Origin: Hyphomicrobiales bacterium
GTDB lineage: Bacteria > Pseudomonadota > Alphaproteobacteria > Rhizobiales > JAJFHB01
Direction: 5' to 3'
Assembly (NCBI GenBank): GCA_021775615.1
Contig: JAJFHL010000233.1
Location: 1 to 50,248 of the forward strand
DNA: 50,248 nucleotides
The position numbers and the translations under genes were made by a program. The notes under the pieces are model-generated. The model ran no database searches, was not told the origin of the DNA, and was given only the letters and a program-made list of their open reading frames with translations. Below are positions 3,642 to 32,038 of the stretch, in pieces (positions within the stretch are counted from its first letter, which is position 1; every line of letters starts with the position of its first letter).

Positions 3642-3905
3642 TTAGCCCACACGGGCCTTCTGGCATCCGTGGCTGCGGCCGAACTTGCCCTTCCTGCGGG
3701 CACGGTCGACCTTGCGGTTGCATTCGCGGCGGGCGCGGGTGCAGGCGGTGCTGCCCTTCCTGGCCTTTGCGTAGCCCACGATTATGTGGTTGGAGGTGTC
3801 CACGGCCGTGTAGGCGCAGGACGCGGCCGAGGCCGGCGACACGGCTCCGGCCATAAACATGAAGCCGGTTGCCGCCGCGATGGCGAGTGAAGAGATCGCT
3901 TTCAT
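3642..3905 (-). CDS. Small secreted basic cysteine-containing protein
   Basis: An 87-residue protein with a clear signal peptide: MKAISSLAIAAATGFMFMAG, then AVSPASA before a likely cleavage at about residue 27. The mature 60 residues are strongly basic, with KARK, RARREC and RARRKGK clusters and four cysteines (SCAY, TACTR, RECN, HGCQ). This suggests a disulfide-stabilised periplasmic or secreted miniprotein. No family recognised. It is monocistronic, with about 225 bases to the next minus-strand gene. The clean signal peptide argues it is real despite its size. Confidence 0.7.
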   Translation of the reverse strand: MKAISSLAIAAATGFMFMAGAVSPASAASCAYTAVDTSNHIIVGYAKARKGSTACTRARRECNRKVDRARRKGKFGRSHGCQKARVG

Positions 3906-4131
3906 TTACTCAAATCCTTCTGTTGGCCGCGTTTCAAGACGCGTTGCGGGCGCCTTGAAGCGACGGCGTGTTGCAGTTGTCGCCCCCTTTGACGCGGGCC
4001 AACGGAAAGTGGTTCAAAAGTTTCTTGGAAATCGCAGCAGGGCGGAGCCGGCGAGAATGAGTGTCCGGGCCTTGGCGCGCGAGGCCGGCAGGTCCGATAT
4101 CAGCAGTGCGGCCCTTGTCTGATTGCCGCGA

Positions 4132-5730
4132 TCATCGCGGTGTCTGCGATACCACATGCGAGGCGAAACCCGCGCCGGCCTCGGTGTAGATGTTGAACAC
4201 CGTGGCGGCGCCGGCCTGTTTCAACTCCTCGACTTCGTCCTGAAACTTCGCCGTCGCCACGACTTTTCCAGAGAACGAGGTGCCCTGGAGCTGATCCAGA
4301 ACCGCGAGGTTGGTGTTGAGCTTCGGCAGTGCAAGCATGACCAGTTCGAGCGTGTCGGTTGCGTGGACGCGATCCCAGAAGTCGGCGTCGCCCGGGTCGC
4401 CGAGCAGCACGTTACGGCCGGCCGCGCGTTGGTTCCTCACCGTTACCGGATCGACGTCCACTCCGACAACGGTCCCGCCATAGAGCTCGTGCATCTTGTC
4501 GTAGGTCCCGGTGCCGATGCCGCCCATGCCGATGATCGCGATCGTCATGCCCTCGATGTCGAATTGCCGGTCGTCGGCGAGACGTTTCGATCTTTGCAGA
4601 CGCCTCCAGATCCTGCGGTAGCGGGTGTGCAGCCGGTGGACGACCGTGTTGAGCCCGGCGGCGATGGCGAAGGACAGGGACAGTGCGATCGCGATGACGA
4701 TCAGCCACTCGTTTTCGATCCAGCCGTTGGCGACGCCGATGGCCGCGACGATGAGGCCGAACTCGCTGTAATTGGTCAGGTTCAAGGATGCGTGCAGCGA
4801 GGTGCGGGCGCGCAGATTGAACCCCACAAGCAGGCCGAAAAAGAGCGCGGATTTGAGGAACACAAACGGCGTGATCAAAGCGCCGACGACGACCGTCTCG
4901 AGGGTCAGTTGGCCGGACAGGCCGATGGACAGGAAAAACCCGAGCAGAAACAGATCCTTGAAGCCCAGCATGGTCTTGGCCATTTCCTCGGACTTGTGGT
5001 GGCTGGCGATCAGCACGCCAAGGACGAGCGCCCCAAGGTCGCCCTTCAACCCGACCAGTTGGAAGACCTCGGCGCCGCCCAGGGCGAGCAGGAAACCATA
5101 AAGCACCAGCAGTTCGCCGTGACCGACGCGCTGCAGCAGCTTATGCAGAAGCGGCCGAAGCGGTATGAGCAGGATGATCGACAGTGCCCATACCGACGGC
5201 CAGATGCCGGTTGAAATGGCGAGAAATGCAACAGCGGCAAGATCCTGCATGATCAGGATGCCGATAGCGATCCGGCCGTGCAGCGAGGCCATTTCGCCCT
5301 TTTCCTCGAGCGCCTTGACCACGAAGACGGTGCTGGAAAAGCTCAAGGCAAATGCGATCAGCACGCTGCGTTGAAGGTCCAGGCCGGATACGAAGGGCGT
5401 GCCCGCCAGCGCGAGGGCGTAAATCGCGGCGCCGAACACCACGACAACGATGGAGGTGTGCAGGCCGGTCACGGCCCACACCTGCGGCCGTGCGAGGGTG
5501 CGAAGATTGAGCTTCAGGCCGACGACGAACAACAGCAAGGTGATGCCGAGATCGGAGAGCTTCTCGAGCATCTCCCCGCCGGAGACGCCCAGAGCATTGA
5601 GCGCAAATCCGGCTGCGAGAAACCCCACCAGCGGCGGCAGTCCGACGGATCTGGACAAGAGGCCAAGTGCGAAAGCGAGCGAGATCCAGACGACATCCCC
5701 AAGCGCGACAGCGGCCCATTCGAAGTCCAT
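4132..5730 (-). CDS. KefB-like CPA2 monovalent cation:proton antiporter with RCK domain
   Basis: A 532-residue inner-membrane transporter of the CPA2 family, expected to exchange K+ (or Na+) for protons. Residues about 10-375 are a run of hydrophobic helices containing the family motif MQDLAAV (161-167), matching KefB/KefC proteins. Residues 395-520 form a TrkA-N/RCK nucleotide-binding domain with the Rossmann motif IIGMGGIGTGTY. The TrkA-C part is missing or very short, as in many members. It starts 53 bases after the stop of the P-type ATPase gene on the same strand, so the two are probably cotranscribed. Its position in a cluster headed by an FNR-type box suggests a role in ion homeostasis under low oxygen or stress. 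Confidence 0.9.
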   Translation of the reverse strand: MDFEWAAVALGDVVWISLAFALGLLSRSVGLPPLVGFLAAGFALNALGVSGGEMLEKLSDLGITLLLFVVGLKLNLRTLARPQVWAVTGLHTSIVVVVFGAAIYALALAGTPFVSGLDLQRSVLIAFALSFSSTVFVVKALEEKGEMASLHGRIAIGILIMQDLAAVAFLAISTGIWPSVWALSIILLIPLRPLLHKLLQRVGHGELLVLYGFLLALGGAEVFQLVGLKGDLGALVLGVLIASHHKSEEMAKTMLGFKDLFLLGFFLSIGLSGQLTLETVVVGALITPFVFLKSALFFGLLVGFNLRARTSLHASLNLTNYSEFGLIVAAIGVANGWIENEWLIVIAIALSLSFAIAAGLNTVVHRLHTRYRRIWRRLQRSKRLADDRQFDIEGMTIAIIGMGGIGTGTYDKMHELYGGTVVGVDVDPVTVRNQRAAGRNVLLGDPGDADFWDRVHATDTLELVMLALPKLNTNLAVLDQLQGTSFSGKVVATAKFQDEVEELKQAGAATVFNIYTEAGAGFASHVVSQTPR

Positions 5731-5783: not shown

Positions 5784-8576
5784 TCATTGCACGTACCCGT
5801 CTTGCGTTGCCGGCCGGCCGTCTCGTGTCCGGCTGCGCGCGCGGCGGGCGATCAGGCGCTGGAGCCATTTCTCGGCCTCGAGAACCAGGAAGGCCGCGAC
5901 GCCGACACCGAGCACCTGGAGGCTCTGCACCAGGTTCAGCGGCCGGGTGTCGAAGAACGCCTTCATGAAGGGCGCGTATGTGAACAGGAGCTGGAAGACC
6001 ACCGCCGCGGCGACAGCCATCAGCACCGCCGGCGTGCCGCGCGCACCGCGCCATGTGATCGACGAGGCCTTCAGGTAGCGGACGCTGAAGAGATAGAATA
6101 TCTCGAGCACCACAAGCGTGTTGACCACGACGGTGCGGGCCTCTTCGATGCCCACGCCTTGCGTCTGCGTCAGTGCGAAAACTCCGAACAGGGCGCCGAG
6201 GAAAAGGACCGACACGAAAACCACACGCCATATCAGAAAGCCCGAGAGGATTGCCTCCCCGGCGGCGCGCGGCGGCCGGCGCATGACGTCGGGTTCAGCC
6301 GGCTCGAAGGCAAGCGCCAGACCAAGGGTCACAGCCGTAACCATCTTGACCCACAGGATCTGAATGGGGGTGATCGGCAGGGTGGAGCCGAGCAGGATCG
6401 CGGCAATCAGCACCAGAGCTTCGCCGCCGCTTGTCGGAAGGATAAAGAGAATAGCCTTCTTCAGGTTGTCGTAGACGGTTCGCCCTGCCCGGACGGCTTC
6501 GGCGAGGGTCGCGAAATTGTCGTCGGCGAGGACCATTTCCGAAGCCTCCTTCGCCGCCTCGCTTCCGTTCCGTCCCATGGCGATGCCGACGTCGGCGCGC
6601 TTCAGGGCCGGCGCGTCGTTAACGCCGTCTCCGGTCATTGCGACAATGGCGCCTTCCGCCTGCAGGGCCATGACCAGCCGCAGTTTGTGCTCAGGGCTGG
6701 TGCGCGCAAAAACGGACGTATCGCGAACCCGAAGCCGGAGTGCATCGTCGTCCAGGGTGTCGATATCGCGGCCGGTCAGGATTGCGCCGGGATGCTCCAG
6801 GCCGAGTTGCCCGGCGATGGCCGCCGCTGTGCCGGCGTGATCTCCTGTGATCATTTTCACGCCAACGCCGGCGGCCTGGCACTCGGCCACGGCGGCAACC
6901 GCCTCTTCACGCGGCGGGTCGATCAAGCCGAACAGGCCAAGAAACGTTAGCCCGTTTTCGACATCATCGAACTCAAGGTCGGTGTGAGAGACGTCCGTCG
7001 TCTTCATCGCGACAGCGAGAACCCGCTGACCGCCGGACGCGATCTCTTCGACTTTCGCGTTCCAATACTCCGGGTCAATCGCACTGTCGCCTTCGAACCC
7101 GCGCTGCCGCGCGCACATCTCAAGGATGCGTTCGGGAGCACCCTTGACGTAAATGAAGCCTTCACCGGAGTGGTTGTGGTGGAGAACCGCCATGAAGCGG
7201 TGTTCGGCGTCGAATGGAATAACGTCGCTGCGGGGAGCGTTCGCGGTTTCCACGCCATGATCGAGACCGGCCTTGCAGGCGACCGCGACCAGGGCGCCTT
7301 CCATGGGATCGCCTTCGACGCTCCAGTGACCGTCCGCCTCCTGCAAGCTGGCCTCATTGCAGAGTAGCGCCGCCCTCGTCATTTCCTGCAGAAGCGGATA
7401 GTCCGAGACGTCGATTTCGCGGCCGGCCTGTGAGAATCCGCCACGGGGCGCGTAGCCAACGCCGCTCACGGTAAACAGGCGTTTGGAGGTGGCGACCGTG
7501 ACAACGGCCATTTCGTTGCGCGTCAGCGTCCCGGTCTTGTCGGAGCAGATAACGGAGACAGACCCAAGAGTCTCGATCGCCGGAAGGCGGCGTACGATCG
7601 CGTTTCGCCGCGCCATGTCCTGCACACCGATCGCGAGGGTTATGGTCAAAATGGCGGGCAACCCCTCGGGGACGGCGGCGACCGTCAGGCCGACCACCGC
7701 CATGAAAATCTCGCTAAAGCCGTAGTCGCGAACCAGGAGGCCGAAGGCGAGGACAGCGGCGGCAAGACCGAGGATCGCCGCTGACAGCCATTTTGCGAAC
7801 CCGTTCATCTGCCGCGTCAGCGGGGTCTGCAGCGTTGTCACTTCGGACAGCATGCCGCTGATTTGCCCGATTGCGGTCTCAGCGCCGGTGGCGACGACGA
7901 CACCCTTGCCCTGGCCGTAGGTCACAAGCGTCCCGCTGAACGCCATTGAGGAACGGTCGCCAAGCGCCATTGCCGCGTCAACCGGCAGCGGGGTCTTTTC
8001 GACGGCGACCGACTCGCCGGTCAGGACGGCCTCGTCGATTTTCATGCTTCGGGCCTGGATGAGCCTGATGTCGGCGGGCACCCGCTCGCCTGCCTCAAGC
8101 AGGACAATGTCGCCGGGAACGATCTCCCCGCCAGGGACGGTCCTGCGCCTGCCTCCCCGCATGATGCTGGCCGTTGGGGCAAGCATGTCGCGGAGCGCTT
8201 CCAGTGCGTTTTCGGCCTTGCCTTCCTGGAGGAAACCGATGACTGCGTTCACCAGAACGACGGCGAATATGACCTGTGCGTCGATCCAGTGGCCAACCAG
8301 TGCGGTGACGACCGTAGCGCCGAGCAGCACGTAGATCAGAAAATCGTGGAACTGGGAGAAGAACCGCAGAAGCGGTCCTCGCCGTTTCGGCGGCGTCAGG
8401 CGATTTGGCCCAAACCGCTCCAGACGCTCGTGCGCATCCGCTTCGCTCAGGCCACCGGGATCGCTGCCTTGAACCGCCATGGCGTCATTGGCCGAAACCG
8501 CATGCCAAGCCTGCCCACCGGCCGGTTCGGTCGATGTGCCCTGTCCCGTTCCGCCGCTTCGCTGAAGAACCGTCAT
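5784..8576 (-). CDS. Cation-translocating P-type ATPase (P2, Ca2+/Mg2+-type)
   Basis: A 930-residue membrane pump with the full P-type architecture: N-terminal cation-ATPase domain (about 22-95), first helix pair, actuator domain with TGES (186-189), AVPEGLPAIL in the fourth helix (about 301-310), phosphorylation motif SDKTGTLT with the acceptor Asp near 346, the TGDGVNDAPALKRADVG hinge, and a C-terminal helix bundle. PEGLP with this layout points to the P2 group (Ca2+ or Mg2+ pumps); the ion cannot be fixed from sequence. The ATG at 8576 is preferred over 8618 because it is preceded by AAGAG/GGGAAG-type Shine-Dalgarno sequence. It lies 74 bases after a small HTH gene and 53 before the antiporter gene. 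Confidence 0.92.
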   Translation of the reverse strand: MTVLQRSGGTGQGTSTEPAGGQAWHAVSANDAMAVQGSDPGGLSEADAHERLERFGPNRLTPPKRRGPLLRFFSQFHDFLIYVLLGATVVTALVGHWIDAQVIFAVVLVNAVIGFLQEGKAENALEALRDMLAPTASIMRGGRRRTVPGGEIVPGDIVLLEAGERVPADIRLIQARSMKIDEAVLTGESVAVEKTPLPVDAAMALGDRSSMAFSGTLVTYGQGKGVVVATGAETAIGQISGMLSEVTTLQTPLTRQMNGFAKWLSAAILGLAAAVLAFGLLVRDYGFSEIFMAVVGLTVAAVPEGLPAILTITLAIGVQDMARRNAIVRRLPAIETLGSVSVICSDKTGTLTRNEMAVVTVATSKRLFTVSGVGYAPRGGFSQAGREIDVSDYPLLQEMTRAALLCNEASLQEADGHWSVEGDPMEGALVAVACKAGLDHGVETANAPRSDVIPFDAEHRFMAVLHHNHSGEGFIYVKGAPERILEMCARQRGFEGDSAIDPEYWNAKVEEIASGGQRVLAVAMKTTDVSHTDLEFDDVENGLTFLGLFGLIDPPREEAVAAVAECQAAGVGVKMITGDHAGTAAAIAGQLGLEHPGAILTGRDIDTLDDDALRLRVRDTSVFARTSPEHKLRLVMALQAEGAIVAMTGDGVNDAPALKRADVGIAMGRNGSEAAKEASEMVLADDNFATLAEAVRAGRTVYDNLKKAILFILPTSGGEALVLIAAILLGSTLPITPIQILWVKMVTAVTLGLALAFEPAEPDVMRRPPRAAGEAILSGFLIWRVVFVSVLFLGALFGVFALTQTQGVGIEEARTVVVNTLVVLEIFYLFSVRYLKASSITWRGARGTPAVLMAVAAAVVFQLLFTYAPFMKAFFDTRPLNLVQSLQVLGVGVAAFLVLEAEKWLQRLIARRARSRTRDGRPATQDGYVQ

Positions 8577-9891: not shown

Positions 9892-11022
9892 TTAGACCGC
9901 CGGAACCTGTTGCGTGATGCAGTGGACGCCGCCGCCGCCTTCGGCGATGTAGCGACCGGTGATCGGGACAACCCGACGATCCGGGAAGGCTTCGCGGAGG
10001 ATGCCGAGCGGCACGTCGTCTTCGCCTGCCTTGCCGGCAACCGGCACGATCACGGCACCGTTGCAGATATAGAAGTTCATGTGGACGACATTCCAGCTGG
10101 TCAGCGGGATCTCGATGATCTCCAGCTTGCGGCCTTTCGCGTCGCGTGTCCGGCGCAGGATTTCGCGCGCTTCTTTCGTGATCGCATGGTTGGGGTCGCT
10201 TCGGTCATCCGTCGTGTGCAGCAGCACGACGCCCGGTGCGGCAAAGGCCGCCATGCCGTCGATATGGCCATCGGTGATCGGATCGGGGGTCAGTCCCCGC
10301 GGGATCCAGATGATTTTCTCGACGCCGAGCCAGTCCTTCAGCATCGTCTCGATCTCGGCCTTTGACTTGCCGGGATTTCGGTTCTTGTTCAACAGGCACT
10401 CTTCGGTGGTGATCAAGGTGCCCTCGCCATCGAGCGCCACCGCGCCGCCTTCGAGCACCATGTCCACGGGATGCAGGGCCATGCCGAGATGTTTCGCAAA
10501 CCGCGCCTTGGCGAGCAGGTCGTCGTCATAGGGGGGGAACTTGGCGCCCCATCCGTTGAACTCGAACCCGGCGACGGCGCGTTCGCCGGACGCGTTGGTG
10601 AGGATCATCGGACCGCTGTCGCGGCTCCAGCCATCGTTCATGGCGAACTCGACAAACGCGATGTCCGAAGACAGAAGCTTTTCCGCTTCGGCCCTGTCGC
10701 CCGGCTGGACCGCCATCAGGACCGGCTCGAATTCGGCCACCGCATTGGCGACCGCGGCCCACTCCGTGCGCGCGCCGCGGAGCTGATTGTCGTTCCAGTT
10801 CTGCGGCGGCAGGAACTGCATGAGCGTGCGTTCATGGCGCGTCCATTCGGCGGGGAAGGAAAACCCGTCATCGGCCGGCGCCGAACGTACCAGTTCGACC
10901 CCGGTCGAGGTGTAGTCGGCGGTGGCGGCGAGGCCGCGCGCCGGCAGGCCGGATGCGGCAAATCCCATTGCGGCGGCTCCCATTGTGGCGGCTCCCAGGG
11001 CAGTGAAGTTTCTGCGGTTCAT
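9892..11022 (-). CDS. Agmatine deiminase family protein with Tat signal peptide
   Basis: A 376-residue member of the agmatine deiminase/porphyromonas-type peptidylarginine deiminase family, which hydrolyses agmatine to N-carbamoylputrescine and ammonia. The core is intact: EGGAVALDGEGTLITTEEC, TDGHIDGMAAF, and GGGGVHCITQQ with the catalytic Cys near 368. Unlike usual members it begins with a twin-arginine signal peptide: NRRNFTALG at residues 2-10, an Ala/Gly-rich hydrophobic part, and an Ala-rich end near 33. It is therefore predicted to be folded in the cytoplasm and exported by Tat. The start at 11022 has a GGAGA Shine-Dalgarno. It is divergent from the aguB-like gene. A cytosolic paralogue lies at 12199-13245. 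The substrate could be another guanidino compound. Confidence 0.88.
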   Translation of the reverse strand: MNRRNFTALGAATMGAAAMGFAASGLPARGLAATADYTSTGVELVRSAPADDGFSFPAEWTRHERTLMQFLPPQNWNDNQLRGARTEWAAVANAVAEFEPVLMAVQPGDRAEAEKLLSSDIAFVEFAMNDGWSRDSGPMILTNASGERAVAGFEFNGWGAKFPPYDDDLLAKARFAKHLGMALHPVDMVLEGGAVALDGEGTLITTEECLLNKNRNPGKSKAEIETMLKDWLGVEKIIWIPRGLTPDPITDGHIDGMAAFAAPGVVLLHTTDDRSDPNHAITKEAREILRRTRDAKGRKLEIIEIPLTSWNVVHMNFYICNGAVIVPVAGKAGEDDVPLGILREAFPDRRVVPITGRYIAEGGGGVHCITQQVPAV

Positions 11023-11282
11023 GATCGTCTCCGTACCTCTTGGTCTGCAGGTGGACGGCCGGGCAATCGGTTTGGTCGACACACACCGATTACTGTTTCG
11101 ATATAATTGAATTAGTAATTTTCATATTCAGCCATGGAATTCGCGATGAATCCCGATTTACGGCTTCTGCCATCTATGATAATCATGCAGACGCGCGCAT
11201 CAAAACGCGAATTCATCATCAGTTTCATTAAAATCACTCATGAATATGAGTTCGATGGCAGACCCCATGGAGGCAGGTTGAA
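11023..11282. promoter_or_regulatory. AT-rich divergent promoter region with several inverted repeats
   Basis: These 260 bases between the Tat-type agmatine deiminase gene and the aguB-like gene are clearly more AT-rich than their surroundings. They hold three dyads: ACTCATGAATATGAGT (11236-11251, 6-bp arms), ATGATAATCAT (11176-11186), and GAATTCGCG at 11137-11145 with its exact inverse CGCGAATTC at 11206-11214. A strong GGAGG at 11269-11273 serves the aguB-like gene. The dyads are plausible operators for the nearby LysR regulator or another protein; this is inference. Confidence 0.45.
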
Positions 11283-12176
11283 ATGAGAGAGGTCACATTC
11301 GCAGTCACACAAATGGCGTGCACGTGGGACCGTGCCGCCAACATCGCCAACGCGGCCGACCTCGTGGAAAAGGCGGCGGCCAAGGGCGCCAATGTGGTGG
11401 TTCTGCAGGAACTGTTCGAGACGCCCTATTTCTGCATCGACACGGACAAGGCGCATTTCGCTCACGCCACACCGGCGGATGCAAATCCGGCGCTTGAAGC
11501 GCTCAAACCGCTTGCAGAAAAGCTGGATGTGGTCATCGCCGTGTCATTTTTCGAAAAGGCGGGGGACCGGTTCTTCAACACACTGGCGATGATCGACGCG
11601 GGTGGGGAGCTGCTCGGGTTCTACAGGAAGAGCCATATTCCCGATTTTCCGAATTACGAGGAGGCGTTTTACTTCGATCAGGGCGATACCGGGTTCACGG
11701 TGTTCGACACGAAGTTCTGCCGGATCGGCGGGGCGGTGTGCTGGGATCAGTGGTTCCCGGAGGCGGCCCGCATCATGACCCTCAGGGGCGCGGAGGTGCT
11801 CATCTATCCGACCGCCATCGGCCGTGACTCCAACATGCCGGGCTATGATTCAAAGCAGCACTGGCAACAGGCCATGCAGGGGCATGCGGCGTCGAACATG
11901 GTGATTGTCGCGGCAAGCAACCGTGTCGGCGTCGAGCAGGGCGAGGGAGGCTCCATAGCTTTCTACGGCGGCTCGTTCATCGCCAACCAGTTCGGCGACA
12001 AGGTGGCTGAAGCCGGCGAAGACGACACCGAGATCGCGACGGCGACATTCGACCTCGATGCGGTTGCCGAGATGCGCCGGCGCTGGGGGATGTTCCGCAC
12101 GCGCCGGACCGACATCTATGGCGCCCTCACCGAGACCGCACCACCTGAACTGATGGACGATCGCGCGGCCCCGTGA
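11283..12176 (+). CDS. aguB: N-carbamoylputrescine amidase
   Basis: A 297-residue nitrilase-superfamily amidohydrolase. It converts N-carbamoylputrescine to putrescine, CO2 and ammonia, the step after agmatine deiminase. The catalytic Glu-Lys-Cys triad is present: Glu43 in VLQELFETPYF, Lys116 in YRKSHIPD, Cys153 in GGAVCWDQWFPE. The motifs LQELFETPYFC, SHIPDFPNYEEAFYF and IYPTAIG match the AguB branch closely. The start has a strong GGAGG nine bases upstream. It is flanked by two agmatine deiminase genes, one divergent and one convergent (22 bases between stops), so the agmatine-to-putrescine route is complete here. Confidence 0.93.
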   Translation: MREVTFAVTQMACTWDRAANIANAADLVEKAAAKGANVVVLQELFETPYFCIDTDKAHFAHATPADANPALEALKPLAEKLDVVIAVSFFEKAGDRFFNTLAMIDAGGELLGFYRKSHIPDFPNYEEAFYFDQGDTGFTVFDTKFCRIGGAVCWDQWFPEAARIMTLRGAEVLIYPTAIGRDSNMPGYDSKQHWQQAMQGHAASNMVIVAASNRVGVEQGEGGSIAFYGGSFIANQFGDKVAEAGEDDTEIATATFDLDAVAEMRRRWGMFRTRRTDIYGALTETAPPELMDDRAAP

Positions 12177-12180
12177 CCTG

Positions 12181-12195
12181 CCCGCGAATGGCGGG
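12181..12195. terminator. Short hairpin between convergent aguB and aguA
   Basis: CCCGC at 12181-12185 pairs with GCGGG at 12191-12195 around a five-base loop, exactly in the 22-base gap between two convergent stop codons. It has no T-run, so it is at best a weak bidirectional terminator. Confidence 0.3.
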
Positions 12196-12198
12196 ACT

Positions 12199-13245
12199 TC
12201 AGGCGGCGGGCTGCTGCTGCGTGATGCAGTGAATGCCGCCGCCGCCAATGGCGATGTCGCCGACCGGCACCGACACCACCTTGCGGTCGGGAAACAGGGC
12301 CTCGTAAACGCCGCGCGCACGCTCGTCTTCGGGAATGCCGTAGGACGGAATGACCACGCCGCCATTCGCGATATAGCTGTTGACATAAGAGCGGCAGAAA
12401 CGGCTGCCGTCGGGCTCGGCGCTGTGGGCTTCCTCGATGAAGGCCAGTTCGATGGGCCGGCCCCTGGCGTCGGTCACGCCGTCCAGCGCCCTGGCGTTCT
12501 CCTCCATGATGTCGGCGCCTGGCGCGGCCGGATCGGGCGAGCGTTCGATCAGCACGACGCCTGGGCGAACGAAGACTGCGATCCCATCGACATGACCGTC
12601 GGTTTCGGTTTCCTCCACATTACCGGGCAGCCAGATCACCTTCTTCACGCCCAGCATCTGCATGAGTTCGGCCTCGACATCGGTCTTGCTCCAGCCCGGA
12701 TTTCGGTTTTCGTTGAGGAAGCAGGATTCGGTCGTGATCAACGTACCTTCGCCGTCGACGCTGAGGCCACCGCCCTCGGCGGTGAGCTGCGATGCAAACC
12801 GCGGCACACCGATGTGTTCGGCAATGCGGCGCGCCATCAGGGCGTCCTTGTCGTAGGGGTGGTACTTGCCGCCCCAGGCGTTGAACGTCAGGCCGACCGC
12901 CGCCAGGTTGCCGTCTGCGTCGATCACGAAACAGGGGCCTGTGTCCCGCGTCCAGGAATCATCCAGCGGCATTTCGACGACGTCGATGCCGGGTCCCAGC
13001 AGGGCGGAAGCTTCGGCGGCGTCCTGTGGCCGTGCAAGCATGGTCACAGGTTCGAACAAAGCGATGGCGGCGGCGACCGCCGCGTAGCCGCGCCTGGTCT
13101 TCTCCAGCCGGTCGCCCCAGACCTCGGCGCGGCATGGCCAGGCCATCCAGCACCGTTCATGGCGCTGCCATTCGGCGGGCATGTGGAACCCCAGGTCCGC
13201 CGGGCTGGCGTTTGGCTGCCGGAATGAAGTGCTTGTACCATCCAT
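12199..13245 (-). CDS. aguA: Agmatine deiminase (cytosolic paralogue)
   Basis: A 348-residue agmatine deiminase without a signal peptide, of usual family length. It hydrolyses agmatine to N-carbamoylputrescine, which the neighbouring AguB then cleaves. Visible family elements are MPAEWQRHERCWMAWP at the N-terminus, PLDDSWTRDTGPCFV, EGGGLSVDGEGTLITTESC, TDGHVDGIAVF, and GGGGIHCITQQQP with the catalytic Cys near 340. It is a diverged paralogue of the Tat-exported protein at 9892-11022. It is transcribed divergently from a LysR regulator at 13393, with 147 bases between the starts, and that regulator is its likely controller. Confidence 0.94.
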   Translation of the reverse strand: MDGTSTSFRQPNASPADLGFHMPAEWQRHERCWMAWPCRAEVWGDRLEKTRRGYAAVAAAIALFEPVTMLARPQDAAEASALLGPGIDVVEMPLDDSWTRDTGPCFVIDADGNLAAVGLTFNAWGGKYHPYDKDALMARRIAEHIGVPRFASQLTAEGGGLSVDGEGTLITTESCFLNENRNPGWSKTDVEAELMQMLGVKKVIWLPGNVEETETDGHVDGIAVFVRPGVVLIERSPDPAAPGADIMEENARALDGVTDARGRPIELAFIEEAHSAEPDGSRFCRSYVNSYIANGGVVIPSYGIPEDERARGVYEALFPDRKVVSVPVGDIAIGGGGIHCITQQQPAA

Positions 13246-13392: not shown

Positions 13393-14343
13393 ATGGATAG
13401 ACATTTCGGACGTATCCCTCCGCTGAGCGCTCTGCGCGGCTTTGAGGCCGCAGCACGTCTGGGCAGCTTTTCGCGGGCTGCGGAAGAGCAGAACATGACG
13501 CAATCCGCCATCAGTCATCAGGTCAAGGCGCTTGAAGAGTTCTTCCGCCAGCCACTGTTCAAGCGGATCGGCAGGACCGTCGAGTTGACCGATGCGGGCA
13601 GGGACTTTCTCGGGACCGCCGGCCGGTCCCTGCAGATGCTGGCGCGTGGCACGCGGCGGCTCGATTCCTATCTCAAACCCGGATCGGTCATCGTCACCAC
13701 ATCGCCTGCCTTCGCCGGCAAATGGCTGATCCCGAGATTTGCGCAACTGGCGAGCCTTCATCCCGAATTGCAGCCATGGCTCTACACGACCGACGAGCAC
13801 GCAAGCCTCGACAATGCAGAGTTGGACATTGCGATCTGGCGCGGCGATGGGGCCTGGCCGGGCCTCAAGGTCGAAAAGCTGTTCGACGACTGGATCACGC
13901 CCATGTGCGCGCCGGGACTGTTGCCTGACGGGTCGGCGGCGGCGGATCTCTCCGGGTTCGATCTGTTGCACGACGAGCGCCGGCCGGACTGGCATGAGTG
14001 GTTCATCCATGCGCAGGCCGAGAGATCCGATGTCAGCCAGGGCCTCAACTTCAGCGATTCCGGCCTGCTGCTGGACAGTGCCGCCGCCGGTCACGGCATG
14101 GCGCTGGGAAGCATGGTGCTGGCGGATCGCCTTGTGGAGGACGGCGCTCTCGTTCGGCCGTTCGACACCGCGATGCAGGCGGAAGACTCCTATTATGCCG
14201 TCTGCATTGAAATGCACCTGCGCCGGCCGGCGGTCCAAACCATGTGGGACTGGCTGATCGAGCAGGGCGCCCGGTTCGCCGACCGGCTGCAGGTAACGCC
14301 ACGCAGCGAACCGGCGCTGGCGGGAGTTCCTGAACCACTCTAG
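13393..14343 (+). CDS. LysR-family transcriptional regulator, GcvA-like
   Basis: A 316-residue LysR regulator. The N-terminal winged HTH (IPPLSALRGFEAAARLGSFS, then AAEEQNMTQSAISHQVKAL) covers about residues 8-65, and the effector-binding domain the rest, including LDIAIWRGDGAWPG and AAGHGMALGS. The ATG at 13393 starts the conserved N-terminus; an earlier in-frame ATG at 13294 would add 33 residues of unlike character. It is divergent from the cytosolic agmatine deiminase gene, so agmatine or putrescine is a likely signal, by inference. Its stop codon overlaps that of the convergent acetate kinase gene by four bases (CTAG, which reads TAG on both strands). Confidence 0.92.
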   Translation: MDRHFGRIPPLSALRGFEAAARLGSFSRAAEEQNMTQSAISHQVKALEEFFRQPLFKRIGRTVELTDAGRDFLGTAGRSLQMLARGTRRLDSYLKPGSVIVTTSPAFAGKWLIPRFAQLASLHPELQPWLYTTDEHASLDNAELDIAIWRGDGAWPGLKVEKLFDDWITPMCAPGLLPDGSAAADLSGFDLLHDERRPDWHEWFIHAQAERSDVSQGLNFSDSGLLLDSAAAGHGMALGSMVLADRLVEDGALVRPFDTAMQAEDSYYAVCIEMHLRRPAVQTMWDWLIEQGARFADRLQVTPRSEPALAGVPEPL

Positions 14344-15533
14344 CCGGGCTGGCCGGGCATGAGGGCGCGTGTGGACTGGCCGATGACCAGCTCTTCGTTT
14401 GTCGGGATGACGAGCACCTGCACTTTTGAGTGAGGCCCGCTGATGGTCGTGCGGTTTTCGTTGTTCGCCGTATCGTCGAGGACGACCCCGAGCCAGCCCA
14501 GGCGTTTGCAGATCTGGCGGCGCACCTTTGCCGAGTTCTCTCCGATCCCCGCCGTGAACACCAGGGCGTCAAGGCCTTCGAGGGCGGCAACGAGGGCGCC
14601 GAGCTCACAGGCGGCGCGGTAGCAGAACAGATCGATCGCCTCGCCCGCATGCGGCTCGGAACTCTCCTGCAGCACCTGCATGTTGTTGCTGATGCCCGAC
14701 ACGCCGAGCAATCCGGACTCGCGATAGAGCAACTGCTGGATCTCATCGTGGCTCATGTCGAGACTTTGCTGCAGGTGGAGCACGACGCCGGGATCGAGCG
14801 CGCCGCAGCGCCGTCCCATGACCAGGCCGTCGAGGGCGGTGAAACCCATTGTGGTGGCAACGCTGTGCCGCTCTTTCATGGCGCACATACTGGCGCCGTT
14901 GCCGAGATGGGCAATGACAACGCGGCCGTCGGCGCGCGGGCCCAGATGATCAGGCAGCTGGCCGGCTATGTATTCATAGGAAAGGCCATGGAACCCGTAA
15001 CGCAATATGCCCTCATCGCTGAGCTTGCGCGGCAGGGCGAAGAGCTGGGCCAGGCGCGGCTGGGTGCGGTGAAAGCCGGTGTCGAAACAGGCAACCTGAT
15101 GCAGGCCCGGGGCCCATTGGGAGACGGCCTTTACCGCGGCCAGGTTGTGTGGCTGGTGCAGGGGCGCGAGAGACGTCAACTCCTCGAGTTGATCCATGAC
15201 GTCCGGATCGATCACGACCGGGCCGGAAAAGCGGCGGCCGCCATGGACCACCCTGTGACCGGCGGCAACCAGGGTGGTTCCACCGTCGTTGTCGCGAAGC
15301 CACTCGAGCAGCCGGATCGTCAGCTCGCCATGTCCGGCACCGGGGTCGATCGCCTCCAGTCCGTCCTCTTCCAGAACCCGCCCTGTAGGGTCACGCACGA
15401 TGAAGTCCGGGGCGCGGCCGATGCCGCTGATCTTGCCGCCGAGCAGAGCGCCGGCGCCGGGATCCGATGCCGGGAAAAGGGCAAACTTGATGCTGGATGA
15501 ACCGGCGTTGAAAACAAGGATCGTGTCGGTCAT
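14340..15533 (-). CDS. ackA: Acetate kinase
   Basis: A 397-residue cytosolic kinase that interconverts acetyl phosphate plus ADP with acetate plus ATP. The sequence shows the ASKHA-fold hallmarks of AckA: FNAGSSSIKFALF at the N-terminus, AAGHRVVHGG, ACFDTGFH, YGFHGLSYEYI, VIAHLGNGASMCA, and FTAGIGENSAKVR near the C-terminus. The start at 15533 begins the conserved N-terminus; a 24-residue upstream extension is unlike the family. No phosphotransacetylase or phosphoketolase gene is beside it, so its acyl-phosphate partner is encoded elsewhere. The stop overlaps that of the convergent LysR gene. Confidence 0.95.
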   Translation of the reverse strand: MTDTILVFNAGSSSIKFALFPASDPGAGALLGGKISGIGRAPDFIVRDPTGRVLEEDGLEAIDPGAGHGELTIRLLEWLRDNDGGTTLVAAGHRVVHGGRRFSGPVVIDPDVMDQLEELTSLAPLHQPHNLAAVKAVSQWAPGLHQVACFDTGFHRTQPRLAQLFALPRKLSDEGILRYGFHGLSYEYIAGQLPDHLGPRADGRVVIAHLGNGASMCAMKERHSVATTMGFTALDGLVMGRRCGALDPGVVLHLQQSLDMSHDEIQQLLYRESGLLGVSGISNNMQVLQESSEPHAGEAIDLFCYRAACELGALVAALEGLDALVFTAGIGENSAKVRRQICKRLGWLGVVLDDTANNENRTTISGPHSKVQVLVIPTNEELVIGQSTRALMPGQPG

Positions 15534-15644: not shown

Positions 15645-16454
15645 TCACGCGTGCCACACGACCGGGAATGCGGCGTGGTCCATGAGGGCGCCCTCGTCCA
15701 GGTCAACCTCTGGGAACGGTGGTGAGGTTTTCCAGGGCCGTGTGGTGAAACAGGCATCATCGCCAAGCCAGCGGGTCGAAAAGCCGCGCCGCCGGGTCTT
15801 GAGATGTGCCGTCGCAGGGGCGCCGTGCAGGGTGCGCATGTGAAATACAATGCAATCGCCCGGTTCCAGATCCCACGACAGGATGGTGCGGCTGTCCCGC
15901 TCGGCATCGATATCGGGAATGGTCTCGAACCCGTCAACACCTTCGCCGTAGTTCTGATGACTGACGAACAATCTCGGATAGTACATTTTTCCCGATCGGT
16001 GCGATCCGGCAACAAACTCGGGGCAAGCGCTCCGCGGCACCGGGTCGAGCGGCAACCAGATCGAACACAGCCGTTCACCGTCGACGCCGTAATACGGCAG
16101 ATCGTGATGCCACGGCGTGACTTCGGTCGTGCCGGGTTCCTTCACGAGGACATGCTCGTGATAGATCCGCGCGGAGGAGGACCGCATCAGGCGGCCGACA
16201 ATCTCGCCGGCGGGGGAATTCAGAACGAAATCCTTGTACTCGGGGATGCGGTGCCAATTGCAGTAATCATCGTAGAAGCCGCCGGGCTTGCCTTGCGGAG
16301 TGTAGACGGTGCTGTCGGGGCCGGGATGGGCAAAGTTTTTCTCAAGACCGGCTGAAAGAGAGTCCAGCCACGATATGTCGAAGACGCCGCGCAAACAGAC
16401 CGCGCCGTCTCGTTCAAAATCAGCGACAGTGCTTTCGGAGATGAGGTCATTCAT
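15645..16454 (-). CDS. Phytanoyl-CoA dioxygenase (PhyH) family Fe(II)/2-oxoglutarate oxygenase
   Basis: A 269-residue non-haem iron oxygenase of the PhyH family, which hydroxylates small molecules with 2-oxoglutarate as cosubstrate. The iron ligands are visible as HxD in TPWHHDLPYY (His116, Asp118) and a distal His in RTLHGAPA (His210), followed by an Arg-rich segment (KTRRRGFSTRW) with the expected 2-oxoglutarate-binding Arg. The substrate is unknown; PhyH proteins of this size act on ectoine, amino acids, secondary metabolites or alkyl compounds. Its ATG overlaps the stop of the upstream oxygenase gene by four bases (ATGA), so the two are translationally coupled and probably act in one pathway. 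Confidence 0.88.
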   Translation of the reverse strand: MNDLISESTVADFERDGAVCLRGVFDISWLDSLSAGLEKNFAHPGPDSTVYTPQGKPGGFYDDYCNWHRIPEYKDFVLNSPAGEIVGRLMRSSSARIYHEHVLVKEPGTTEVTPWHHDLPYYGVDGERLCSIWLPLDPVPRSACPEFVAGSHRSGKMYYPRLFVSHQNYGEGVDGFETIPDIDAERDSRTILSWDLEPGDCIVFHMRTLHGAPATAHLKTRRRGFSTRWLGDDACFTTRPWKTSPPFPEVDLDEGALMDHAAFPVVWHA

Positions 16455-17299
16455 GGCCCGGCCTCCAGGACCGGTTGCGGCTCCAGGCCGGTGCGGCCCC
16501 AGAAAAGCTTCCGGACTTCCGGGCTGTTGGTGGAGCCGGGCTCCTCTGAATAACAAAGAACCGGAACCAGCCTGGGGCGCTTGCCGTGCACCTTGGTTAC
16601 CCGGTGGATCGTCTGCCTGCCGCCGAAGATCAGGAGTGTCCCCGCCGTGAACGGCAGTTCGACGACGCCGTCGCGGGCGCCGTCGAGGACCTTCGCCACA
16701 ATTGCCTTTTCGTCCGGCAGGCCGCGGATCTTGGGGACAAACTCAAATGCGCCGCCTTCCTCGGGGGGCTGCAGCATCAAGGTAACGGTGAATTCCGACT
16801 CATCGAAGTGCCAGCCATGCTCTCCGCCATCCCTGAAGACATTGATCGAACAGGCGCCCATCATGTCGGCGAAGCGATGCAGGACCGGCTTGCCGAGCAC
16901 TGCGGCGATAAAGTCCTTGAGCGGGTTCCATTTGTAGAGGCGCTTCAGCGCCGCGTCTTCGTGGATGAGATCGTAGGCAACCGACCCAACATAGGTTTCT
17001 TCGAGGCGGTGGCTGACGTCGTCATCGTCGGTGATGCCGTCGTCTTCGGCCAGATAGGCATTGTGAGCGCTTCTGCAGAAGTAGGCCTTGTCGAGCAATC
17101 CGCCGGCCTCGGAGGCAAGCACGGCAAGAGCGTCGGGGCGAATGAAGCCGTGCAGCATGCACAGACCTGTTGCGACATACTCGCGATGGCGTTTTTCCGT
17201 GAAGGCGGCGCCGTCCGCTGCTGCCAGATTGGCGATGGGATAGCGGTCCAGATCGACCATCGATGCCGCGTCTGCGAATGAAGTCTGCGATGCGCTCAT
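16451..17299 (-). CDS. BesD/HalD-like Fe(II)/2-oxoglutarate oxygenase, predicted hydroxylase
   Basis: A 282-residue protein with a double-stranded beta-helix oxygenase core. The facial triad is H164-x-D166 in GWHFDESEFTVTLML and His232 in GRQTIHRVTKV, followed by the 2-oxoglutarate Arg in KRPRLVPVL. This layout resembles the family that includes the amino-acid halogenases BesD and HalD. In those halogenases the Asp of HxD is replaced by Gly to make room for chloride; here Asp is present, so hydroxylation (or another oxidation) is predicted. Family membership is from remembered motif similarity and needs a search. The ATG at 17299 has an AGGG upstream; a TTG at 17308 is possible. It is the first gene of a coupled pair with the PhyH gene. 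Confidence 0.78.
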   Translation of the reverse strand: MSASQTSFADAASMVDLDRYPIANLAAADGAAFTEKRHREYVATGLCMLHGFIRPDALAVLASEAGGLLDKAYFCRSAHNAYLAEDDGITDDDDVSHRLEETYVGSVAYDLIHEDAALKRLYKWNPLKDFIAAVLGKPVLHRFADMMGACSINVFRDGGEHGWHFDESEFTVTLMLQPPEEGGAFEFVPKIRGLPDEKAIVAKVLDGARDGVVELPFTAGTLLIFGGRQTIHRVTKVHGKRPRLVPVLCYSEEPGSTNSPEVRKLFWGRTGLEPQPVLEAGP

Positions 17300-26758: not shown

Positions 26759-28060
26759 ATGCAGCGGCTGCAAAGGATTGAAGTTCTGTCCGATGATTAC
26801 GGGTGCGCGCCTGTCGCGGCGGCGCCACAGCGGCCCCGCAGGGTCGACTTTCAGGGCAACGGGAAAAAGGCCACGCCGACGTTCTCGATAGCGGAGATGA
26901 AACGTCGGCAAGACGCAATTCGCCACAAGATGGCGGACGGCGGCATCGATGCGGCGCTGTTCACGTCGTACCACAATATCTGCTATTTTTCCGACTTCGT
27001 GTATTGCCAGTTCGGCCGGCGCTACGGTCTCGTCATCGATCATCATGATGCGACGAGCGTCAGCGCGGGGATCGACGGTGGCCAGCCGTGGCGCCGCACA
27101 TTCGGCAACAACGTAACGTACACGGATTGGGAAAAAGACAACTATTTTCACACCTTGCGGGATCTGCTGAAGGGGGTGAGACGGCTTGGCGTCGAGTTCG
27201 ACCATGTCAGTGCGGAGCTGCGCGATCGACTCGCGGACTGGTTTCCGGGCGTGGAGCTGGTTGATATCGCCGGCCCCGCAATGCAGGTGCGAATCATCAA
27301 ATCGACTGAGGAAATCGACCATATCACCGAGATGGCGCGGGTCGCCGACATCGGCGGTGCGGCCTGTGTCGAGATGCTGTGCCAGGGAGTGAGAGAGTAT
27401 GAGGTGGCGCTGCATGCGACGCAGGCGATGGTGCATGAAATCGCGATTACCTGGCCGCATGCCGAACTCATGGACACGTGGACCTGGTTTCAGTCGGGCC
27501 TCAACACCGATGGCGCACACAATCCCCTGACAAGCCGTCAGATACAGGGCGGCGACATTCTCTCGCTCAACTGCTTCCCCATGGTGGCGGGGTACTATGT
27601 TGCGCTTGAACGCACGTTGTTCTGCGACACCGCATCGGATGCGGCCATCCGGTTGTGGGAGGTCAACTGCAAGGTACATGACCGGGGCAAGGAACTGCTG
27701 GTGCCGGGCGCGCGCTGCAGCGATGTGGCGCGCGAACTCAACGCGCTTTACGAAGAGCACGAGCTTTTGCAGTACAGGTCGTTCGGCTATGGGCATTCCT
27801 TTGGCGTGTTGTGCCACTATTACGGCCGCGAGGGCGCGCTTGAACTGCGTGAAGACTGCGACACGGTGCTCGAACCGGGCATGGTGCTATCCATGGAGCC
27901 GATGATCACGGTGCCCGATCACCTGCCGGGTGGCGGTGGCTACCGCGAGCATGACACCTTGGTGATTACGCAAGACGGCAACCGCAATATGACGCAGTTC
28001 CCGTATGGTCCGGACCAGATGATCATTGCGGCATGTCCTGCCGGGCGGGTCGACGAATAG
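26759..28060 (+). CDS. Creatinase (creatine amidinohydrolase)
   Basis: A 433-residue enzyme of the M24 'pita-bread' fold that hydrolyses creatine to sarcosine and urea. It matches Pseudomonas creatinase throughout: FTSYHNICYFSDFVYCQFGR, IDGGQPWRRTFG, ELMDTWTWFQSGLNTDGAHN, GDILSLNCFPMVAGYYVALE, SFGYGHSFGVL, SMEPMI. The catalytic His (His254) and the two active-site Glu (Glu284, Glu380) are at the spacing of His232, Glu262 and Glu358 in the Pseudomonas enzyme, and the metal ligands of M24 peptidases are not conserved, as expected. The N-terminus is about 20 residues longer than usual; the ATG at 26759 has a GAGGGAG about ten bases upstream. A polyamine-type ABC transporter follows 207 bases later. 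Confidence 0.93.
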   Translation: MQRLQRIEVLSDDYGCAPVAAAPQRPRRVDFQGNGKKATPTFSIAEMKRRQDAIRHKMADGGIDAALFTSYHNICYFSDFVYCQFGRRYGLVIDHHDATSVSAGIDGGQPWRRTFGNNVTYTDWEKDNYFHTLRDLLKGVRRLGVEFDHVSAELRDRLADWFPGVELVDIAGPAMQVRIIKSTEEIDHITEMARVADIGGAACVEMLCQGVREYEVALHATQAMVHEIAITWPHAELMDTWTWFQSGLNTDGAHNPLTSRQIQGGDILSLNCFPMVAGYYVALERTLFCDTASDAAIRLWEVNCKVHDRGKELLVPGARCSDVARELNALYEEHELLQYRSFGYGHSFGVLCHYYGREGALELREDCDTVLEPGMVLSMEPMITVPDHLPGGGGYREHDTLVITQDGNRNMTQFPYGPDQMIIAACPAGRVDE

Positions 28061-28267
28061 AGCGTGGAAAGAGCCGTCAACGTCGGCAGAGACATGCTGA
28101 CAGGACAAATCCGGCACGGCGTTAAGGAGTTGTCACAGAGCAACCTTGCATGTCGCTCCGAGACATGATTTGTTCGTGCGAAAATGAGCGCCCGCGATTG
28201 ACGTGGGATAAACAGTCTTGCGTGGCATGAGCCATAGCGGCGGATTGAGACGGGTCTGGGGAGTGCG

Positions 28268-29395
28268 ATGGGTGGATCGAACGGAGCTGGCGAACCGATG
28301 GTTCGCTTTGAAGGCGTCCAGAAGAGCTATGATGGCGAGGCACTGGTCGTAAAGGACCTGAACCTCGACATATCGAAAGGCGAGTTCGTCACCATGCTCG
28401 GGCCATCCGGTTCGGGCAAGACAACCTGTCTTATGATGCTTGCCGGTTTTGAACCGGCGACATACGGCGAGATCTATCTCGAAGGCGAGCCGATCAACAA
28501 TGTTCCGCCGCACAAGCGCGGCATCGGCATGGTGTTCCAGAACTATGCACTGTTTCCGCATATGACCATTGCGGAAAACCTGGCCTTTCCGCTGCAGGTA
28601 CGCGGCATGGGCAAGGCCGAACAGGAAGAGCGCGTCAAGAAGGCGCTGGAGATGGTGGAACTGCCGACCCTGGGCGGACGCCGCCCGGCGCAGCTCTCCG
28701 GCGGCCAGCAGCAGCGCGTTGCGGTGGCGCGCGCATTGGTGTTCGAGCCCTCCCTCATCTTGATGGACGAGCCCCTGGGCGCGCTCGACAAGCAGCTGCG
28801 CGAGCAGATGCAGTATGAAATCAAGCATATTCACGAGAACCTGAAGGTTACCGTCGTCTATGTGACGCACGATCAGGCCGAAGCGCTGACCATGTCGGAC
28901 CGCATTGCGGTCTTCAACGACGGGGTCATCCAGCAGCTGTCATCGCCGGAAGACCTCTATGAGCGGCCCGACAATGCCTTCGTCGCGCAGTTCATCGGCG
29001 AGAACAACAAGCTGGCCGGCACGGTTCAGGAGATCGACAAGGACAAGGTGGCCACGGTCAAACTCGACAGCGGCGACGTGGTCAAGGCCCAGGCCGTTGC
29101 GGTCAACGGCAAGGGCGACCGGACCTTGCTGTCGATACGCCCGGAGCGGGTTGCGATCGCGCCCAAGAAGCTGAAGAACACGATTGTCCTCGATGGCACG
29201 ATCGAAGAGCTGATTTATCTTGGCGATCATATCCGCACCCGCATGTCGGTTGCCGGCCACAACGATTTCGTCGTCAAGGTTCCGAATAATTCTGGGCACC
29301 ATGTGCTCAAGGAAGGCGAAAAGACCACGCTCGGCTGGATCGCAGAGGACTGCCGGGCGCTGGACTACAATATCTACGACAAGGATCACGGGTGA
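28268..29395 (+). CDS. ABC transporter ATP-binding protein, PotA-like (importer 1)
   Basis: A 375-residue ATPase for a polyamine/opine-type importer. Walker A is GPSGSGKTT (45-53), the Q-loop is [11 protein letters not shown], the signature LSGGQQQR (143-150), Walker B LILMDEP (163-169) and the H-loop [14 protein letters not shown]. The last 120 residues form the TOBE domain typical of PotA/FbpC-type subunits ([10 protein letters not shown]). It is the first gene of a four-gene transporter set (ATPase, binding protein, two permeases) downstream of creatinase, so the cargo may be creatine or a related guanidino compound. An earlier ATG is absent; an internal ATG at residue 11 is the alternative start. 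Confidence 0.95.
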
Positions 29396-29499
29396 GCGCG
29401 ATCCTTTCGGGAGACAAGGCGGGAGCAACTGCCTGCCCTGTAGATCGACGGCAAGGCCGTCAAACACTGAAGTGAAGTGAAAAGGGAGTAAGAAATCTA

Positions 29500-30642
29500 A
29501 TGAAAGATCTTTTGAAAAAGGGAACCGCACTGTCGGCCGTGGTGGCCGGCTGCGTTCTCGCGTTCAGTGCGACCACCACAACCACCGCCAGCGCGGATGA
29601 AGCGTGCGGCGCCGACGTCACAATGACATACGTGTCCTGGGGTGGCGCCTATTCTGCTTCACAGCAGAAAGCCTATCATGACCCGTGGATGGCGAAGTGC
29701 CCGGGCATCAAGATCGTCAACGACGATTCGGCTTCGGAAGGCCTCGCCAAGCTGCGTGCACAGGTGGAAGCCGGCAACGTCACCTGGGATCTGGTCGACA
29801 TGGAAGCGGCGCAAGCGGTCACCGCCTGTGAAGAGGGCCTTGCCGAAGAGATCGATCCTGATACGCATCTGGCTCCCGCGCCCGATGGCACGCCGGCATC
29901 GAAGGACTTCTTCGACGGCTTTTTCGTCTCCGAATGCTACATTCCGCAGATCGTCTATTCGACGACCTTCGGCTACCGCACGGACGCTTTTGGCGACAAG
30001 AAGCTCAGCAGCATTGCCGACGTCTTCGACCTCGAGGCTTTCCCCGGCAAGCGGGCTCTTGAGAAACGACCCGATGGAAACCTCGAATGGGCTCTGATCG
30101 CCGACGGCGTTCCGGCCTCTGACGTCTATGACGTTCTCGAGACCGAAGAAGGCGTCGCACGCGCTTTCAACAAGCTCGCCACCATCAAGGACCAGGTGAT
30201 TTGGTGGACCAAGGGCGCCCAGCCGCCGCAGCTGCTTGCTGACGGTGAAGTGGTGATCGCGTCCGCCTATAACGGCCGCCTGTTCTCCGCGATCGTCGAG
30301 AAGAACCAGCCGATTGCCATGATGTGGCAGTGGCAGGTCTTCGCCATCGATGGCTGGGTGATCCCCAAGGGCACCAAGAACAAGGACCAGGTGTTGAAGT
30401 ACCTGCGGTTCGCCACCGACACGCAACGCCTGGCGGATCAGGCCAAGTACATCTCCTACGGCCCGGCGCGCAAGTCGTCCGCTCCGCTGGTGGGCAAGCA
30501 TGCCGACCTCGGTATCGACATGGGTCCGCACATGCCGACGGCGCCTGAAAACGCCAAGGAAACGCTGCTGTACAACACCGACTGGTGGGCCGACAATCGC
30601 GAGTCCTTCGACGAGCGCTTCAACGCTTGGCTGGCCAAGTAA
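29500..30642 (+). CDS. Periplasmic substrate-binding protein, PotD-like (importer 1)
   Basis: A 380-residue exported protein with a signal peptide (LLKKGTALSAVVAGCVLAFS, cleavage near ASA-DEA at about 33) and the bacterial extracellular binding-protein fold of the PotD/SpuD group (MTYVSWGGAYSASQQKAYHD, WDLVDMEAAQAV, LEAFPGKRALEKRPDGNLEW, WWTKGAQPPQLLADGEV, AYNGRLFSAIVE). A clear ribosome binding site (aaagggag) precedes the ATG. The ligand is not fixed by sequence; polyamines, opines, or, given the neighbouring creatinase, creatine are possible. A stable hairpin lies directly after the gene, which often keeps binding-protein mRNA more abundant than permease mRNA. Confidence 0.94.
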   Translation: MKDLLKKGTALSAVVAGCVLAFSATTTTTASADEACGADVTMTYVSWGGAYSASQQKAYHDPWMAKCPGIKIVNDDSASEGLAKLRAQVEAGNVTWDLVDMEAAQAVTACEEGLAEEIDPDTHLAPAPDGTPASKDFFDGFFVSECYIPQIVYSTTFGYRTDAFGDKKLSSIADVFDLEAFPGKRALEKRPDGNLEWALIADGVPASDVYDVLETEEGVARAFNKLATIKDQVIWWTKGAQPPQLLADGEVVIASAYNGRLFSAIVEKNQPIAMMWQWQVFAIDGWVIPKGTKNKDQVLKYLRFATDTQRLADQAKYISYGPARKSSAPLVGKHADLGIDMGPHMPTAPENAKETLLYNTDWWADNRESFDERFNAWLAK

Positions 30643-30658
30643 GCCACACGCGACATGA

Positions 30659-30687
30659 CTGCAGAAGGGGGTTTTCCCCTTCTGCAG
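30659..30687 (+). terminator. Intra-operon hairpin after binding-protein gene
   Basis: CTGCAGAAGGGG at 30659-30670 pairs perfectly with CCCCTTCTGCAG at 30676-30687 across a five-base loop (gtttt). It lies 16 bases after the binding-protein stop and about 65 before the permease start, with no T-run behind it, so it is more likely a stabilising or attenuating stem than a full terminator. Confidence 0.75.
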
Positions 30688-30752
30688 AACCATTTCTTTG
30701 AACCTTTGCGAGATGCAGGCAGCACCGTAGAGAACTGCTTGGGGAGCAGAAA

Positions 30753-32024: not shown

Positions 32025-32038
32025 GGGGGACATAACTC

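Follow-up and report, generated by a model that had tools for sequence, protein, structure and literature searches.

Enzymes with the BesD fold are valued for their selective C-H chemistry and are known mainly from biosynthesis; to the best of our knowledge, no catabolic role of this fold has been described. Judging from their entry titles, the solved BesD-family proteins have lysine and ornithine among their substrates, and their ligands are aliphatic amino acids. In the halogenases, a glycine takes the place of the carboxylate ligand and leaves a site for the halide (PMC13244439). A second relevant system is MysH from the biosynthesis of palythine, a mycosporine-like amino acid, for which a cyanobacterial sunscreen paper gives a predicted glycine hydroxylation that destabilises the side chain (PMC10510106), and whose gene is a member of a sunscreen biosynthesis cluster (PMC11378024). 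The third is the 2,5-dihydroxypyridine dioxygenase NicX, whose Fe ligands are reported to be His265, Ser302, His318 and Asp320 (PMC7910607).

The locus compared here with these systems lies in a stretch of 50,248 nucleotides, referred to as the window in its full length, and consists of two genes on the minus strand. A HalD/BesD-fold Fe(II)/2OG oxygenase of 282 aa, a predicted hydroxylase, is encoded at 16451..17299 in an open frame with an ATG start at 17299, an in-frame TTG 9 bases upstream of it, and a TGA stop at 16453-16451. The second gene (15645..16454) encodes a PhyH-family Fe(II)/2OG oxygenase of 269 aa, its frame likewise being open from the ATG at 16454 to a stop that ends at 15645. 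Stop and start share the four bases ATGA (16451..16454, minus strand), which agrees with the original prediction of two coupled genes from different oxygenase families: the upstream protein matches the Pfam family HalD (PF23169, 59 bits versus a cut-off of 26), and its partner PhyH (PF05721, 96.3 bits versus a cut-off of 22). The HalD-like protein, for which an NCBIfam search returned no name, also gave a weak match to the PhyH model that stayed under the cut-off of 22 (18.3 bits, E 0.003), so that HalD and PhyH probably belong to a common superfamily as distantly related branches. An acetate/propionate-family kinase (14340..15533, minus strand; TIGR00016, 356.4 bits versus a cut-off of 293.4) starts 111 bases downstream of the PhyH gene on the same strand; it belongs to no cluster common to the other loci, and its membership of the unit is uncertain.

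The HalD-like protein carries the metal-binding pattern His164-Phe-Asp166 with a distal His232 (numbered from the ATG), and His164, Asp166, His232 and Arg243 show no variation across the 26 aligned rows, one of which comes from the window. The structure model built on these 26 sequences (mean pLDDT 90.7) retrieved BesD-family entries exclusively at ranks 1-11 of the fold search, with Z scores of 18.3-22.4 versus 16.7 for the next, unrelated entries. HalB came first (Z 22.4, rmsd 3.6, 235 residues aligned), followed by the BesD-homologous hydroxylase 7jsd (Z 21.7, rmsd 3.7, 236 aligned) and by HalA, HalD and BesD (Z 21.0-21.6), while the second hydroxylase entry scored 18.3. Foldseek likewise placed the BesD family first, and HalB was the first solved sequence found with a profile of the 26-row alignment (E 8.7e-10). 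The protein thus shares its fold and PF23169 with the halogenases BesD, HalB and HalD and with the BesD-homologous lysine hydroxylase, and Arg243 is conserved where the 2OG-binding arginine is expected. It differs from them in its low identity, just 13-18% across the BesD-family rows, and in that its gene is often coupled to a PhyH gene. Asp166 stands in 26 of 26 rows at the place where a BesD-type radical halogenase has the glycine of HxG. As HxD is kept, hydroxylation rather than halogenation is predicted, in line with what had been proposed from His164 and Asp166 beforehand, and no halide site is expected.

The PhyH partner shows the metal pattern His116-His117-Asp118 with His210, that is, an HxD...H arrangement. 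Among solved proteins it is closest to MysH (E 1.3e-35, residues 5-254 of 269 matched), and the next named one is the 1-deoxypentalenic acid 11-beta-hydroxylase (E 6.2e-8). The predicted reaction of MysH is the hydroxylation of an N-linked glycine, which is thereby released, and the PhyH partner may by analogy break a C-N bond. The relation to MysH also made the breakdown of mycosporine-like compounds a candidate role. In contrast to MysH with its biosynthesis cluster, however, the orthologs of the pair recur near importers and breakdown-type enzymes, and no mys genes were noticed by eye in the ortholog neighbourhood listings. The PhyH subfamily is large, with 12 matches in the window's own genome, some of them marginal.

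A locus scan in which each species was represented by one genome gave 31 loci. Of these, 28 are orthologous (53-72% identity); the three distant ones (L089-L091, 26-39% identity) were kept out of the ortholog count, and two pairs of identical public contigs (L069 and L060, L088 and L059) were each counted once among the 28. The record titles of the ortholog loci name Alpha-, Gamma- or unspecified Proteobacteria, most of them being gammaproteobacterial, and Granulosicoccaceae, Woeseia, Leucothrix and Bugula neritina in these titles are lineages or hosts that we take to be marine. Three loci end at or near the HalD-like gene: L072 and L074 stop at or inside it, and L068 leaves 244 bases without a PhyH match. 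Among the 25 informative loci that remain, 14 carry a PhyH ortholog immediately 3' of the HalD-like gene (as fragments only in L067), which exceeds chance; the proportion becomes 14 of 26 if L068 is scored as lacking PhyH. The stop-to-start offset is -4 in eight of the 14 and between +2 and +15 in five others, and one locus has +127. The pair is thus conserved in other genomes, and the refuting condition attached to the original prediction, a lack of such conservation, is not borne out.

The partnership is not a fixed one. At 10 of the 25 informative loci no PhyH match lies beside the HalD-like gene, and in L078 a 43% PhyH paralog sits on its other side. In L070 (10813-10819), where the block of genes is otherwise present, the PhyH gene is missing and 5 bases separate the HalD-like gene from a CMD-like gene. 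On the HalD-like tree, the 28 rows of which comprise 25 ortholog loci, the window, L089 and L090 (the latter two scored as absent), the PhyH-adjacent label changes 7 times, with 4 changes forced by well supported branches; shuffled labels gave 9.5 changes, and 40 of 500 shuffles were as low as the observed value. This tree omits L091 as well as L083, L084 and L087, whose HalD-like frames are split or truncated in draft genomes and which were kept in the neighbour counts. Because PhyH is scattered on the tree and missing at 10 loci with room for it, we regard it as an optional partner: the pairing is genuine but not obligate, and PhyH has been repeatedly gained or lost. The original prediction of a short pathway that oxidises its substrate twice accordingly holds as far as a coupled oxygenase pair is concerned, but a fixed two-oxidation unit is weakened by the 10 loci without PhyH, the different gene order of the paralog in L078 and the changes on the tree. 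Distances of the HalD-like and PhyH proteins correlate at 0.60 over 11 of the 15 available pairs, one from the window and 14 from the other loci, a value that ignores the species tree and omits L062 and L067 (PhyH frame not in the gene list), L083 and L087 (split frames) and the paralog in L078.

At the ortholog level, the pair was found among 41 genomes (the window's own and its relatives) only in the window's genome and in G039, with the HalD-like gene alone in G021. A class-wide profile search of 385 genomes at an E limit of 1e-70 matched 8 genomes, and the matches other than the window, the best at 296.8 bits versus 456.6 bits for the window, were taken for paralogs. None of 37 pattern matches in viral contigs encoded a relative. 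As for the literature, titles and abstract openings of the open-access matches listed for homarine, mycosporine breakdown, BesD hydroxylases and PhyH with betaine named no such pair, which accords with the initial statement that no described pathway with it was known; the combination of HalD-like and PhyH enzymes is new within the literature searched, and the component enzyme kinds are known.

We then compared the neighbourhoods of the 28 loci (445,973 bases in total) with a background of five genomes of the window's alphaproteobacterial order (28.06 Mb). The expected values cross methods, since BLAST, with queries taken for the most part from the loci themselves, was used to score the loci, and profile search to score the background; moreover, most loci are gammaproteobacterial in contrast to the alphaproteobacterial background, and they are not independent of one another. 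Read in this way, SBP_5 (Dpp-type) binding proteins occur in 10 of 28 loci versus 1.3 expected. Five of the ten belong to one syntenic block (L066, L067, L070, L071, L086) that L073 resembles, and after collapsing these six syntenic or near-syntenic loci to one, 5 remain versus about 1.1 expected (P 0.0055). Rieske oxygenases were found in 6 of 28 loci (1.5 expected, P 0.004). MttB-family genes, a possible link to betaines, occur in 3 of 28 loci versus 1.3 expected, which is not above chance (P 0.13); they lie in L079 (297.5 bits, under the cut-off of 525) and in L063 and L078, where BLAST matched them at 24-25% identity. A hand count for the wider HalD-like family, covering 21 places across five genomes (orthologs account for 3), gave SBP_5 within 10 kb in 3 and Rieske in 1, for an expectation of about 1.3 each, a linkage not clearly above chance. 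The pair is therefore near import proteins more often than by chance among orthologs, and not in the wider family.

HalD-like homologs on plasmids elsewhere (32-36% identity) have neighbours that differ from host to host. Amino-acid-type transporter genes lie nearby on the Pantoea and Klebsiella plasmids, and on those of Ensifer and Shinella (L109, L110) a 32% homolog lies within an oligopeptide-type ABC set, flanked by ATPase and binding-protein genes; the Yersinia and Rahnella plasmid homologs have neither of these two sets nearby. On a Mesorhizobium plasmid, a 32%-identical HalD-like homolog, annotated as a 2OG oxygenase, stands in a row of genes with MttB family and Ldh on one side and Rieske and SBP on the other. 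This row, together with the MttB-like genes, the carnitine 3-dehydrogenase gene of L077 and the gene set of L118 described below, points to N-alkylated compounds, though unevenly.

A neighbour found far above chance is a third protein, present at L071 (13062-14150) and in L062, L066, L067, L070, L079, L086, L087 and L088, that is, in 9 of 28 loci versus 0.03 expected, one of the two background genes of its fold itself adjoining the pair (in G039). None of the nine members has a match in Pfam, and sequence searches in NCBIfam and PDB were blank; the fold search alone named NicX. Its model (pLDDT 81.4) aligns with NicX at Z 25.1 (rmsd 3.4, 304 aligned, 13-14% identity; Foldseek E 6e-14) versus Z 17.5 for the aminopeptidase AmpT. 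His262, His294 and His296 are invariant in ten homologs and, by order rather than superposition, resemble His265, His318 and Asp320 among the NicX ligands (PMC7910607), with a histidine where Asp320 is expected. The protein is thus like NicX in its fold and similar histidine order, and differs in being 14% identical, in the apparent Asp-to-His change at the metal site and in matching no Pfam family. CMD-like and GST genes accompany it in five loci of the one syntenic block, and at L118, in another genome, a 39% homolog occurs near genes that resemble GST, CMD, Rieske and sarcosine oxidase, some of these assignments having been made from the sequence itself. The window's genome (96.65% complete) contains no match to the NicX-fold profile, suggesting that the role is unneeded there or is performed differently.

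These observations would fit a module of three enzymes, namely a hydroxylase with the BesD fold, an N-dealkylating oxygenase like MysH and a dioxygenase with the NicX fold, that oxidatively dismantle a marine nitrogen compound, for example a betaine or an N-heterocycle, with the CMD-like and GST partners and the SBP_5/Dpp-type importer as parts of the same reading. We consider this possible, though rather doubtful; if true, such a three-oxygenase module, undescribed so far, would be the first catabolic role known to us for the BesD fold. The narrower proposal that the oxygenases prepare an N-heterocyclic ring which the NicX-fold protein then opens seems unlikely. It draws on the frequency of the third gene, on the preference of its model for NicX over AmpT, on the ligand-like order of its histidines (PMC7910607), on the CMD-like and GST genes of the block, and on L075 (10930-13643), where the HalD-like gene is followed by an apparent two-subunit molybdenum hydroxylase, as read from the sequence. 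However, the low identity to NicX, the histidine in place of Asp320, the aliphatic ligands of the solved BesD-family entries and the lack of a NicX-fold match in the window's genome all speak against it.

Within the window itself, the surroundings had suggested a free amino acid or guanidino acid as the substrate. At 9892-13245, two agmatine deiminase homologs flank a carbamoylputrescine amidase homolog, all under their NCBIfam cut-offs and 2.4-4.6 kb from the pair, and this arrangement, together with lysine and ornithine among the BesD-family substrates, is what favours oxidation of a free cationic amino acid, agmatine or a guanidino acid. BLAST clustering of the 28 other loci, however, placed an AguA-like gene close to the HalD-like gene in a single locus, L082, and members of the nitrilase family in two, L077 and L084, so that the linkage with agu-type genes is not conserved; furthermore, the position of Asn219, a lysine contact of BesD, is Val in the profile alignment, although residue comparison at the substrate site is of low reliability here. 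The recurrent neighbours are instead SBP_5 binding proteins, the NicX-fold protein and Rieske oxygenases, with carnitine-type enzymes in few loci. We thus regard the agmatine or guanidino reading as improbable, and the original suggestion of such a substrate is not supported. Queries for Rieske, SBP_5, the NicX-fold protein, MttB and carnitine genes had no match in the 20.9 kb of the window that were tested. Elsewhere in the window (26759-32890) lies an M24 gene (creatinase/Xaa-Pro peptidase-like), which matched two NCBIfam models but scored far under the cut-off of each, with an apparent polyamine-type ABC transporter, read from sequence, downstream of it.

Besides, the window's genome as a whole has 13 MttB-family, 22 Rieske alpha-subunit, 16 SBP_5 and 12 PhyH-subfamily matches, kinds of protein often tied to quaternary-amine use, and each of four relatives searched has at least 9 MttB-family, Rieske alpha-subunit and SBP_5 matches. 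On one of its contigs (L121, G000:C102) the start of a Rieske gene occurs twice, at 3794-4939 and at 7132-7584, the second copy reaching the contig end; this reflects either a tandem duplication or an assembly repeat.

Carnitine formation classically employs two 2OG oxygenases, for trimethyllysine and for gamma-butyrobetaine hydroxylation, and the HalD-like and PhyH proteins could be imagined as non-homologous stand-ins for them, feeding carnitine and glycine betaine breakdown. BesD-family relatives bind lysine by their entry titles, and in L077 a carnitine 3-dehydrogenase gene (712.8 versus a cut-off of 592) lies beside the PhyH gene. The same locus holds a homolog of BKACE and a Rieske protein that resembles GbcA (319.4 bits, under the cut-off of 670). 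By BLAST, dehydrogenase and BKACE genes related to these occur in L069, with Pfam BKACE on its contig, and a 40.7%-identical PhyH paralog on a Sulfitobacter plasmid is near annotated carnitine 3-dehydrogenase, Rieske and ABC transporter genes. Nevertheless, carnitine dehydrogenase and BKACE occur together in 2 of 28 loci only, no aldolase was recognised by eye among the neighbour genes listed, and the route has no place for the NicX-fold partner, for which reasons we find it decidedly unlikely. That the pair tailors a natural product or osmolyte instead of serving catabolism is very unlikely: the nearest solved relatives, MysH (PMC10510106, PMC11378024) and the BesD family, are biosynthetic, but no biosynthetic cluster signature was noticed by eye in the neighbourhoods listed, and SBP_5 import proteins are enriched instead.

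A catabolic role is thus the most economical reading. As the pair recurs in Proteobacteria, often near import and breakdown genes, it probably helps to degrade a nitrogen-containing small molecule, and the substrate class would be an N-alkylated amino acid or a betaine, an inference of moderate strength. Tentatively, and at somewhat less than even confidence, we surmise that the pair forms the oxidative core of an accessory catabolic module for such an N-alkylated amino acid or betaine-type compound. Its substrate, a small nitrogen-containing molecule and most probably an N-alkylated amino acid or an osmolyte of the betaine type, would be imported, in some hosts through an SBP_5/Dpp-type ABC transporter. 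Judged by its fold and residues, the HalD-like enzyme would insert one oxygen into an unactivated C-H bond; the PhyH enzyme, by homology to MysH, would next oxidise the carbon adjoining the nitrogen and thereby cause the C-N bond to break. The remaining steps of the breakdown would fall to enzymes that vary with the host, such as dehydrogenases, lyases and Rieske oxygenases, or to the NicX-fold protein.

Being conserved, frequently coupled and near import proteins, the pair would indicate a catabolic branch of BesD-fold enzymes. If this is true, the branch would offer new hydroxylases for free small molecules and a testable breakdown route for an environmental nitrogen compound, and the NicX-fold partner found at nine of the 28 loci, with no Pfam family to its name, would constitute a second lead.
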